From Alloalcanivorax dieselolei B5 (lineage in GTDB: Bacteria; Pseudomonadota; Gammaproteobacteria; Pseudomonadales; Alcanivoracaceae), in contig NC_018691.1 of NCBI RefSeq assembly GCF_000300005.1, forward strand, positions 3,224,001 through 3,288,000: a stretch of 64,000 bases of DNA, in the 5' to 3' direction. The position numbers and the translations under genes are program-made. Position 1 is the stretch's first letter. Each line of letters begins with the position of its first letter. Below are positions 2,806-49,504 of the stretch, piece by piece. The notes under the pieces were generated by a model that was given only the letters and a program-made list of their open reading frames with translations, was not told where the DNA came from and searched no databases.

Positions 2806-3430
2806 GTTTCCGGACTTACCGTACGCCTACGACGCCTTGGAACCGGTGATCGACGAGACCACCATGCGCGTGCACCACACCCGCCACCATCGCACCTATT
2901 ACGACAAGTTCGTTGCCGCCATTCGCGGCAGCGATCTGGAACAACAACCAATGGAGACCATTTTCGCCCGCATTTCCCAACACCCGCCTGCGGTGCGCAA
3001 CAACGGCGGTGGCTATTACAACCACACCCTGTATTGGAACGTGATGTCACCGGATGGCGGCGGCGATCCGGTGGGCGCGCTGGCGGATGCTCTGCTGGCC
3101 AAATACGGTTCCTTCGATGAATTCAAAACCGCTTTCGCCAACGCCGGCATCAACCAGTTCGGCTCCGGTTTTGCCTGGCTTTCGGTTACCACGGACGGTG
3201 ATCTGGCGATCAGCTCCACCGGCAATCAGGACAATCCGCTGATGGACACCGCCGAGGTGCGCGGCACACCGATTCTGGGTTGTGATGTGTGGGAGCATGC
3301 CTACTATCTCACCTACATGAATAAGCGCCCGGACTACATCGACGCCTGGTGGAAAGTGGTCAACTGGCCCTACGTGAACCAGTTGTATGAACAGGCTCTG
3401 GCTCAGGCACCGCGGCAAAAATCGGCCTGA
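2795..3430 (+). CDS. sodA: superoxide dismutase, Mn-type signature
   Basis: This 211-residue cytoplasmic enzyme converts superoxide to hydrogen peroxide and oxygen. The expected metal ligands are visible as H27, H77, D164 and H168 (DVWEHAYY). The second-sphere glutamine that separates Mn from Fe enzymes is placed as in MnSOD: glycine at residue 73 and glutamine at 145 in GNQDNP. In FeSOD the glutamine sits at the first position. Manganese is therefore the likely metal, with cambialism still possible. An Mn enzyme behind a Fur box fits use under iron shortage. Confidence 0.9.
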   Translation: MIHEFPDLPYAYDALEPVIDETTMRVHHTRHHRTYYDKFVAAIRGSDLEQQPMETIFARISQHPPAVRNNGGGYYNHTLYWNVMSPDGGGDPVGALADALLAKYGSFDEFKTAFANAGINQFGSGFAWLSVTTDGDLAISSTGNQDNPLMDTAEVRGTPILGCDVWEHAYYLTYMNKRPDYIDAWWKVVNWPYVNQLYEQALAQAPRQKSA

Positions 3431-3540
3431 CGGCGACACCGCTCCTGGCGCCTAGAGCCTGTTCATGATCTCACCGGCGCCAGGGCCATTGTTCCGACGC
3501 GGCGTCATGGCCAAGGTAGAGCGGAACAAGGAGGAGCCTT

Positions 3541-47316: not shown

Positions 47317-47793
47317 ATGAGCGACAATTATCTGCTTAATCTGTACCGCAAAACCCGACGGATTCCCAAGGGGCGGGAATTGTTTTCCCTGATTTTCAGC
47401 CGCAAGGCGCCTTATTTCCGCACCGTCCGGCCCCTGATCGCCGAATTGCGTCCCAACTACTGCGAAGTTCACATCAAAAAACGCAAGGCAGTGGAGAATC
47501 ACATCGGCACGGTTCATGTCATCGCCATTTGTAATGCCCTGGAAGCCGCCATGGGCGCCATGGCCGAAGCGTCCATTCCCAAACACCTGCGCTGGATTCC
47601 CAAGGGCATGGACGTGCACTACACCGCCAAGGCCAGTAGCGACATCGTCGCCACCGCCGAAGTGGCCGCCGATGCCTGGGAAAACGGCCCGGATCTGCCG
47701 GTCACTGTCACCGCCCGGCGCGACGATGGCACCGTGGTGGTGGCCGGCACCATCCACCTCTGGATCACCGAAAAACCGGCCCGGGACGCCTGA
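47317..47793 (+). CDS. DUF4442 hotdog-fold protein (thioesterase-like)
   Basis: The 158-residue protein matches the DUF4442 family, a hotdog fold related to PaaI-type thioesterases: FSLIFSRKAPYFRTVRPLI near 22, a NHIGTVHVIAICNALEAAMG helix near 66 and a final beta sheet. Substrate unknown, probably an acyl-CoA. ATG 47317 follows GGAGA; a longer frame to 47131 is not convincing. The last 29 bases overlap the convergent hydrolase gene. Confidence 0.82.
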   Translation: MSDNYLLNLYRKTRRIPKGRELFSLIFSRKAPYFRTVRPLIAELRPNYCEVHIKKRKAVENHIGTVHVIAICNALEAAMGAMAEASIPKHLRWIPKGMDVHYTAKASSDIVATAEVAADAWENGPDLPVTVTARRDDGTVVVAGTIHLWITEKPARDA

Positions 47794-48439
47794 CATCCGC
47801 TAGTGCATCGATGAACTCAACGATGCGATCCGCCGCCTCACGCAGGTTGTCCTGATGGCTTACCGGCGCCGATTTGCGCGGCTTCAGGTCATGGTCGCCA
47901 TCGGGTAGCCAGGTCACCGTCACCCGGCTGCCCAGAGCATAACCGGCCACTTCCGGCGGCTTGCCGAACGGATCCCGCTCTCCCTGGCAGATCAGCGTCG
48001 GCCGCGACAACGACGGCAGGTGTTCAGTGCGGGTACGTTCCGGCTTCCCCGGCGGATGAAACGGGTAGCCCAGGGCCACCACGCCGGTCCAGGGCTGCTT
48101 GTCCGCTTCGGTGTCCGCCGCCAGCAGCGTCGCCATGCGGCCCCCCATGGATTTGCCGCCAATCCATAGTGGCAATCCGGTGCCGGCTTCCTCGAGCACC
48201 TGACCGACAACGGCGTCGAACCGGGCCAGCAATCTGGCGGCCCGGTCCGGCGGTGCCTTGATGCCTTCGCGGCGCCTTCGGTCCATATAATCAAATTCAA
48301 AGCGGGCCACCTGAATACCCCGCTCCGCCAGCAGTTCCGCCATGCCCGTCATGAACGGACTGTCCATCGGCGCCCCGGCGCCATGGGCCAGCACCAGGGT
48401 GGCGCTTGGCCGCTCCGGCCGATTCCACAACAACGACAA
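47765..48439 (-). CDS. alpha/beta hydrolase of the KANL3/Tex30 type
   Basis: The 224-residue hydrolase has an LVLAHGAGAPMDSPFM start, the nucleophile motif GGKSMGG near residue 95 (serine in GxSxG form), an acid in CQGERDPFG near 157 and the histidine in DGDHDLKPRK near 183. These are the marks of the small family related to KANL3/Tex30. It is cytoplasmic and of unknown substrate. It is convergent with the DUF4442 gene and overlaps it by 29 bp. Confidence 0.82.
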   Translation of the reverse strand: MSLLWNRPERPSATLVLAHGAGAPMDSPFMTGMAELLAERGIQVARFEFDYMDRRRREGIKAPPDRAARLLARFDAVVGQVLEEAGTGLPLWIGGKSMGGRMATLLAADTEADKQPWTGVVALGYPFHPPGKPERTRTEHLPSLSRPTLICQGERDPFGKPPEVAGYALGSRVTVTWLPDGDHDLKPRKSAPVSHQDNLREAADRIVEFIDALADVRRPGPVFR

Positions 48440-48453
48440 TGATCGGTCTCCTT

Positions 48454-48738
48454 AGAGCCTGTTTGCGATCTATACACCGCCGCGCCGGAGTTCCCTTCTC
48501 ACCTGGTAGAAAGTGTCGTCAGGCCGTGATTTCGATTGTGCGGTGTAGTCATTCTACATAAACAAGCGTAATCACGGCCTGGCGGCAAAAGGGGCCCGGC
48601 CCTTCGGGTTGCGCTGGAAAAACCGTCAGACGACGCCCCGGCCTTTGCCTTTGGCCCCACCAAAGCCTGCAGTCCGCGACGCCGTCTGACGGTTTTTCCA
48701 GCAGCAACGCGGTGGCGTATAGATCGCAAACAGGCTCT
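48454..48738. repeat. 285-bp element of nested perfect inverted repeats
   Basis: The outer arms, 48454-48475 and 48717-48738, are a perfect 22-bp inverted repeat, extended by nine more bases with two mismatches. Two further perfect pairs sit inside: 48521-48531 with 48570-48580 (11 bp, AGGCCGTGATT) and 48613-48632 with 48683-48702 (20 bp). A shorter TGTAG/CTACA hairpin is at 48544-48558. No protein gene fits, and no target-site duplication is seen. The outer end, beginning AGAGCCTGTT, has a degraded relative at 3454-3471. It fills the 303-bp gap between the hydrolase and an SDR gene. Confidence 0.85.
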
Positions 48739-48742
48739 CACA

Positions 48743-49504
48743 TCAGGCCTGCAACCAGGCGGCAATACGACGGGTCACCAGACGTGGGGAGAATTTGCCA
48801 AGCCAGATCAGCAACCGGTTGCGCCAGCCGGTTACCACGATGGCCCGCCGCCGGTGCTCCAGAGCCTGACGCACCACATCGCCGGGCTGCATGGCACCGG
48901 CCTTGAACAGCCGGGTCCCGCTCATGTTGGCCTGCTCGGCGAATTCGGTACGGGTGGCGCCGGGACAAAGCGCACTGACCCTAATGCCCTGCCCACGCAA
49001 TTCCTCATGCAGGGCTTCACTGAAGGACAGCACGAACGCCTTGGTGGCGTAGTAGATCGCCATATTCGGCCCGGCCTGAAAGGCCGCGGTGGAGGCCACG
49101 TTGATGATGAACGCATCGCGGGCGGTGCTCAGTTGCGGTAGCACCTGCCAGGTCAGCGCCACCAGAGCATTGACGTTCACCTGGATCATGTTCATCTGCC
49201 GTGGCAATGGCAGATCCTTGAACGGCCCCCGGTCACCAAAACCGGCATTATTGATCAGCCCCACCAGCCGAATCGCACGAGTATCCAGGTCGTGTATCAG
49301 GCGCGACACCGCATCGGGGCTGGCCAGATCGCATTCCAGCGCCACCACCTCGATATTGAACGAAGCCGCCAGTTCCTCACCCAATCGTTGCAGGGCAGGC
49401 AAACGTCGCGCCGCCAGTACCAGATTATACCCTTCCGCCGCCAATTGCCGGGCGAAAGCATCGCCAATACCGGCACTTGCGCCAGTGATCAGTACCGCTT
49501 CCAT
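48743..49504 (-). CDS. short-chain dehydrogenase/reductase (DltE/YqjQ-like)
   Basis: The 253-residue NAD(P) enzyme has the TGASAGIGDAFA cofactor motif at 7-18, an NNAGFGDRG segment near 88, and the catalytic NVASTAAFQAGP serine with YYATKAFVLSFSEAL (YxxxK) near 150-165. The basic C-terminal tail (RNRLLIWLGKFSPRLVTRR) may touch the membrane. The substrate is unknown. It ends a few bases beyond the nested inverted-repeat element. Confidence 0.85.
   Translation of the reverse strand: MEAVLITGASAGIGDAFARQLAAEGYNLVLAARRLPALQRLGEELAASFNIEVVALECDLASPDAVSRLIHDLDTRAIRLVGLINNAGFGDRGPFKDLPLPRQMNMIQVNVNALVALTWQVLPQLSTARDAFIINVASTAAFQAGPNMAIYYATKAFVLSFSEALHEELRGQGIRVSALCPGATRTEFAEQANMSGTRLFKAGAMQPGDVVRQALEHRRRAIVVTGWRNRLLIWLGKFSPRLVTRRIAAWLQA

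Follow-up and report, generated by a model that had tools for sequence, protein, structure and literature searches.

Is the nested palindrome between two genes of Alloalcanivorax dieselolei B5 a mobile element, or does it work as a structured RNA? The first-pass annotation had offered both readings for positions 48454-48738 of the window (the whole 64,000-nucleotide stretch of DNA analysed), where it described a perfect 22-bp terminal repeat enclosing perfect inverted repeats of 11 and 20 bp. All three repeats were recovered, each within a longer one. The terminal arms (48454-48484 and 48708-48738) are 31 nt long and 94% identical, and their outer 22 bp are perfect. The two inner repeats (26 nt, 85% and 32 nt, 88%) include the perfect cores of 11 and 20 bp and form hairpins A and B (Table 1). 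The expectation that such nesting exceeds chance also held, since the plus strand folds at -176.8 kcal/mol while shuffled sequences fold at -98.4 kcal/mol (sd 4.4, z -17.7, 0 of 200 shuffles). The minus strand folds at -183.9 kcal/mol (z -15.1), and again none of 200 shuffles is as low. The 21-nt end occurs twice in the 64-kb window against 0.00 expected. Absence of coding potential had been claimed as well; counting from 60 aa up, only short frames of 64-88 aa overlap the element or its flanking base, and no sign of a gene was seen.

Table 1. Features of the element, its surroundings in the window, and its other full copies. Positions are those of the window, except for the full copies, which are placed in the genome.
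Feature	Position	Strand	Basis or remark
Downstream neighbour host gene	47765-48439	-	224 aa ORF; no NCBIfam match; alpha/beta-hydrolase-like by motif
Left target-site duplication TTA (TCA in empty sites)	48452-48454	.	Empty sites in G006 and G007: CTCC-TCA-CCATC
Left TIR GAGCCTGTTTGCGATCTATACACCGCCGCG	48455-48484	+	Repeat search, alignment of copies
Optional small hairpin module m1 CTTCTCACCTGGTAGAAAG	48494-48513, approximate	+	Copy alignment; orthologous pairs L081/L102, L213/L222
Hairpin A	48514-48587	+	Arms 48514-48539, 48562-48587
Hairpin A tip GTGTAG...CTACAT	48543-48559	+	Sequence
Central small hairpin CGGCCCTTCGGGTTG	48597-48611	+	Strongly conserved, common to GGG-ended relatives
Hairpin B	48613-48702	+	Arms 48613-48644, 48671-48702
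Right TIR	48708-48737	-	Repeat search
Right target-site duplication TCA	48738-48740	.	Empty sites
Frame overlapping the element	48499-48765	minus	88 aa
Frame overlapping the element	48712-48906	plus	64 aa
Frame touching flanking base 48738 only	48738-48968	minus	76 aa
Upstream neighbour host gene	48743-49504	-	SDR family oxidoreductase-like; NCBIfam matches below curated cut-offs
Full copy	717452		92% to window copy
Full copy	1634981		84% to window copy
Full copy	4259139		83% to window copy

Empty sites in relatives, which had been proposed as a check, are present in two sister species. Each of the 13 genomes of the genus has a match to one or both flanks of the element, in most of them to just one. 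In G006 and G007 both flanking genes are present and the site is empty, with a single TCA. The empty site reads GGTCTCC-TCA-CCATCAGG, and the window reads GGTCTCC-TTA-[GAGCC...GGCTC]-TCA-CATCAGG. This comparison defines an element of 283 bp (48455-48737) with near-perfect terminal inverted repeats (TIRs) around two hairpins, flanked by a TNA duplication that is imperfect in the window copy, TTA and TCA being one base apart. The extent first proposed therefore stands for the element itself, but its outermost A and T are part of the target duplication. G010, which is more distant, has its two flank matches separated by 41 bases, too few to hold the element. Both neighbouring genes lie on the minus strand, and the insertion separates the stop codon of the SDR-type gene (read on the plus strand as TCA, 48743-48745) from the start of the gene that follows it. 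On the minus strand, the change from TCA to TTA turns TGAGGAG into TAAGGAG (within 48440-48454), at the likely ribosome-binding site immediately before the start of that following gene.

At the same site, G008 has a shortened remnant that retains TCA and the left end, plus a fragment that includes the central mini-hairpin; this shows one route to a solitary end. The insertion is common to G008 and the A. dieselolei genome (G000) and absent from G006 and G007, both of which are nearer to G000. By flank identity G006 is nearest, then G007, then G008, suggesting the branching ((G000,G006),G007),G008. With this branching, one gain does not by itself explain an insertion confined to G000 and G008, and either clean losses or a second insertion are needed. 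Independent insertions in G000 and G008 are a real possibility, although a somewhat doubtful one. Both copies have the TIR variant TTTGCGATC, found in 7 of the 128 ends listed, and both have the same TCA, which fits a single ancestral insertion followed by clean excisions in G006 and G007.

The TNA duplication is also seen at other sites. From the fetched loci (one genome per species was sampled), 88 paired-end elements were collected after removal of duplicate loci, 75 with GAG ends like those of the window copy and 13 with GGG ends; collapsing same-site copies left 74 distinct sites. Of the 62 GAG sites, 28 are flanked left and right by TNA, and in 20 of these the two are identical; shuffling left against right flanks 2000 times gave on average 7.85 identical TNA and at most 16. 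The GAG sites have the flank consensus C-TNA-G. The remaining 34 sites lack TNA on one or both sides, which the decay of old duplications could explain. No identical flanking 3-mers occur at the 12 GGG sites, as expected if the GGG duplication is a 2-bp TA.

The first-pass annotation also suspected a repeat family of this genome (4,928,223 bp in a single contig). It consists of four full copies, 83-100% identical in a genome search with the element, and eight solitary TIRs. A search with the end pattern (22 nt, up to three mismatches) found 16 places, eight in full copies and eight solitary, against none for the reversed control. No convincing partner of the solitary ends was found within about 1,500 bases inward; two of them have weak candidates with 4 and 5 mismatches in 16. 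The degraded end that had been pointed out at 3454-3471 belongs here. AGAGCCTGTTCATGATCTC at 3454-3472 (+) is a solitary end as seen elsewhere, apparently intergenic, and is a probable single-TIR remnant of another copy. A minus-strand match at 3390-3399, apparently at the end of a reading frame, is probably due to chance.

Solitary ends of one variant are located at G000:C1 4138782 and 4027935, at G006 C13 8382 and C45 176221, and at G007 C2 40193. Since the same variant recurs in sister species, some solitary ends may be old and shared. Lone pieces of the body exist as well: a hairpin A (84% identical) in the A. dieselolei genome (L005 1501-1574; G000:C1 1157235-1157308) and pieces resembling it at G006 C12 188395 and G007 C22 157114, none of them with paired ends in its surroundings.

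With the element as query, 44 of 193 genomes (the A. dieselolei genome included) matched at E<=0.01, many in the core only. The GAG end pattern was found in 14 of 46 Alcanivoracaceae genomes, belonging to two of eight genera. A plasmid search returned two records covering 15-19% of the query. A sequence unique in the genome, no empty site, and no pairing conserved in relatives were the three findings named at the outset as speaking against the element; the opposite was found for each.

What could have moved such an element is indicated by its ends. PF13340 (DUF4096), presumably part of IS5-type transposases, was searched as a profile in 293 genomes of the order; 32 matched, 31 of them over the cut-off. 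Five of 30 PF13340 loci (L178-L207) have GRGCCTGTT inverted ends 790-866 bp apart. L193, from another family of the same order, has GAGCCTGTTTAAAATCT ends 866 bp apart with TTA flanking both. Its end agrees with the family end GAGCCTGTTTACGATCT (copy at 717452) in 15 of 17 bases and, by eye, with the window copy in 14 of 17. The 173-aa ORF of L193 reaches 140 bits with NF033580 "IS5 family transposase", for which the cut-off is 110; there is a stop codon inside the PF13340 stretch of the locus. L192, L194, L195, and L201 have GGGCCTGTT ends. It is reported that the IS1031 subgroup prefers TNA with a 3-bp repeat and that one member, ISLrh, has GAACCTGTCTAGTATCT ends (PMC12016507); as given there, the ISLrh end agrees with the family end in 13 of 17 bases and, by eye, with the window copy in 12 of 17. 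IS elements with like ends are found in G078 (GAG type) and, alongside GGG-ended relatives, in G231 and G322.

These comparisons make it highly probable that 48455-48737 is a MITE, a non-autonomous element inserted at TNA and moved in trans by an IS1031-like transposase of the IS5 family. It is shorter than 500 bp and lacks a transposase gene, has TIRs, is flanked by a target duplication confirmed by empty sites, and occurs in dispersed copies. The mobile half of the first proposal is upheld by the dispersed copies, the empty orthologous sites, the TNA duplication, and the autonomous IS5-family elements with like ends elsewhere. With the IS1031 group, as described for ISLrh (PMC12016507), the element shares the end sequence, the TNA target, and the 3-bp duplication, but it is 283 bp long against about 860 bp. 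It is a derivative and not a member of that group, since it encodes no transposase (longest frame 88 aa). Apart from the ends, nothing of its palindromic body turned up in the IS elements. An IS1031-like transposase would recognise the GAGCCTGTT ends in trans and carry the element to TNA targets.

A present-day source of this transposase was sought in the Alcanivoracaceae. PF13340 is found in two of the 46 Alcanivoracaceae genomes, G025 and, as a truncated gene, G000. Neither of the two PF13340 loci of G025 has a GAG-type end pair. The PF13340 searches therefore gave no intact GAG-end mobiliser among the 46 genomes, and the copies of the A. dieselolei genome are probably stranded. PF01609 matched three of the four genomes G000, G006, G007, and G008, and PF13586 none; the PF01609 loci inspected (L169-L174, from G000, G006, and G008, with L175-L177 of G008 left out) have no GAG-type ends. 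The truncated IS5-type gene of the A. dieselolei genome (L208, about 1316-1553; G000:C1 3074815-3075052) scores 30.6 bits against the PF13340 cut-off of 34.3 and is adjoined by an end, CTAGGGTGCGTTAACACTA. Gene and end are possibly the remains of a GGG-type mobiliser.

The body of the element reaches much further than its GAG ends. Its central part matched genomes without such ends; the matching loci hold elements about 267 nt long, bounded by AGGGCCTGTT-like ends and likewise ordered as hairpin A, CCCTTCGGG mini-hairpin, hairpin B. The tip of hairpin A is either retained in these GGG-ended relatives or altered on both sides to GTTTGG...CCAAAT. A GGG-ended relative aligns with its own reverse complement (69%, 1-267), and hairpin B therefore looks like an inverted relative of hairpin A. 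That the core is the leader of a conserved gene was considered and rejected, as ten neighbouring ORFs gave seven different Pfam families and three none, and as full elements with GGG ends were recognised at these loci. The central motif occurs in at least 120 stretches of named genomes. The 80 matches listed are gammaproteobacteria, for example Thiodiazotropha, HTCC5015, Methylophaga, Psychromonas, Porticoccus, Marinimicrobium, Alcanivorax, and Alloalcanivorax. TIRs were identified for 80 of 103 cores; of the remaining 23, several sit at the end of a locus.

A GGG-ended query matched 36 of 369 Gammaproteobacteria genomes (32 of 272 genera) at 1e-8, a count that includes G673 (100%), probably of the query's own species. 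It also gave matches in six of nine genomes tested. Of the five genomes that have an IS with such ends, G231 and G322 matched the GGG query and G060, G290, and G078 did not. G231 has an 808-bp IS5 element and six MITE matches. In G322 both ends were found at 16 of 25 fetched places, and these 16 copies and a 790-bp IS5 element have the same first 19 bases at both ends, with one mismatch (L374); 14 of the 16 copies are flanked by CTA and TAG. Judged from these sequences, the strongest indication that a resident IS5 element mobilises such copies comes from G322, and it concerns the GGG-ended relatives. Hairpin A, the CCCTTCGGG mini-hairpin, and hairpin B together are taken to be an old non-coding unit; its GGGCCTGTT-ended carriers are probably moved by another IS5-family subtype, IS427-like with a TA duplication.

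A body so widely kept could also be one whose hairpins act as RNA and are held by selection on RNA pairing, mobility being incidental. The very stable fold and the hairpins kept in distant relatives are what such a role would predict, and it is reported that QMITE1 of Coxiella yields sRNAs, according to the account in PMC5896051. A count of one-sided stem changes appeared to point the same way. In 56 GAG elements of at least 255 nt, with pairs taken from the plus-strand fold, G-T outnumbered A-C by 217 to 5 in hairpin A, 140 to 47 in hairpin B, 37 to 24 in the TIRs, and 142 to 8 elsewhere. Note that a fold of the plus strand favours G-T; the count is biased by taking the structure from that strand, and the conclusion of RNA selection drawn from 217 against 5 was withdrawn.

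When pairs predicted on both strands were used, the excess disappeared. G-T and A-C numbered 28 and 36 in the GAG set (p 0.38) and 35 and 32 in the GGG set (p 0.81). This test drew on 68 GAG rows with a minimum of 255 nt and 85 GGG rows of 255 to 300 nt, with identical rows removed; closest pairs up to 25% apart were compared, each used once. Other mismatches numbered 23 (GAG, 33 pairs) and 58 (GGG, 39 pairs), and stem changes of both partners 77 (GAG) and 66 (GGG). Pairs of one fold only leave a lean in the GAG set, with G-T in nine columns of the plus-fold-only pairs against A-C in two columns of the minus-fold-only pairs, but it is missing in the GGG set (three columns each). No sigma-70-type promoter or terminator-like site was found in 48300-48900. 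Rfam at gathering score gave just a tRNA in the 64-kb window, elsewhere than the element, and at E<=1 one sub-threshold match in ten loci, outside the element. With one-sided stem changes strand-symmetric and no Rfam family at gathering score in the element, the structured-RNA half of the first proposal was not borne out; there is no good evidence for RNA-level selection, and a role of this kind is very unlikely. REP or BIME-type palindromes spread by a RAYT (Y1 transposase) and not by a DDE transposase are likewise palindromic and multi-copy and leave single-end remnants, but the long inverted ends, the TNA and TA duplications, and the match to IS5-family ends speak against them, as does the length of 20-40 bp given for REPs (PMC3733652), and this origin is extremely unlikely.

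The ends of the element themselves show an unusual pattern of change. Within a copy, the mean difference between the two 22-nt ends is 0.66 bases, and between copies it is 4.40; 33 of 59 copies have perfect end pairs (the sample being the 59 of 62 GAG sites longer than 190 nt). At orthologous sites, end changes are 14 single against 1 double in 10 independent pairs, and 24 against 2 in all same-site comparisons. Between different sites with interiors less than 8% divergent, they are 34 single against 61 double in 19 pairs, of which one (L138/L151; 1 single, 0 double) is probably orthologous, with similar flanks. L217 and L218 differ by 2% in the interior, yet have 10 matched end changes. Since changes are one-sided in orthologues and matched between sites, the match between the two ends appears to be established during or ahead of transposition and not in place. 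Matched ends suggest either that one arm is copied from the other or that matched ends are filtered for. Copying of arm onto arm via a hairpin would fit, and so would a set of old source loci, each with matched ends of its own, that gene conversion keeps alike in their interiors.

The interior changes in another manner. Module m1 is present in some copies and absent from others. Orthologous copies show patchy changes together with clean gain or loss of 15-17-nt hairpin modules (L081/L102, L082/L104, L083/L107, L115/L126, L213/L222), which favours conversion or slippage inside elements. One module was found in four genomes as 10 exact copies and one with a single mismatch, all inside collected elements; five matches with two mismatches were left out. 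In L083/L107 and L082/L104, the same 17-nt hairpin module stands at different positions or is missing in one species. Turnover of the small hairpin modules is fast. A further-reaching idea is that the body is a long-lived passenger of Gammaproteobacteria whose ends are renewed via a hairpin intermediate, and which swaps between the GAG/TNA and GGG/TA subtypes by changing both ends together. This idea is speculative and, on balance, unlikely. If end renewal is true, each new insertion begins with perfectly matched yet altered ends.

In the literature covered (titles and abstracts, most subscription journals being outside its scope) the family was not named, and its end sequences searched as text gave no match. 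Correia elements, RUP, and ERIC are palindromic bacterial MITEs that may affect RNA processing. Their ends, sizes, and target sites differ from those of the present element. Correia elements and ERIC are treated in a review (PMC10969869). In Coxiella burnetii, QMITE1 (300-400 bp) and QMITE2 (150-190 bp) have inverted ends, stable folds, and many copies (PMC5896051). By that description they are alike as gammaproteobacterial MITEs, and QMITE1 has direct repeats of 2-3 nt; as far as the account goes, no orthologues of QMITE1 are reported in other genomes, whereas the family described here spans the class. MITEPsy1 of Pseudomonas syringae is also suspected to be of IS5-family origin, but as described it is 100 bp long with TIR GGAAGGTCTGAAAAAGCC and a 4-bp CTAG or YTAA duplication (PMC3189936). 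In the IS427 group, duplications are mostly of 2 bp, according to a table for Paracoccus (PMC3281130). Here the likeness is to the GGG-ended relatives (G322, with its CTA and TAG flanks) and not to the window copy. Duplication length, two-ORF layout, and size would place the GGG-type IS in this group.

MITEs are often regarded as debris that a single IS leaves for a short time in a single lineage. In this family, one and the same palindromic body can be recognised in 36 of the 369 Gammaproteobacteria genomes sampled and, having diverged, under two kinds of IS5 ends, with end pairs that alter jointly from site to site but singly in orthologues. The copies form a data set for how non-autonomous elements hold matched ends and track changing transposases. 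For annotation, the family explains unannotated hairpin repeats that are open to confusion with regulatory RNAs, and the both-strand comparison of G-T and A-C is a cheap guard against mistaking repeats for RNAs.
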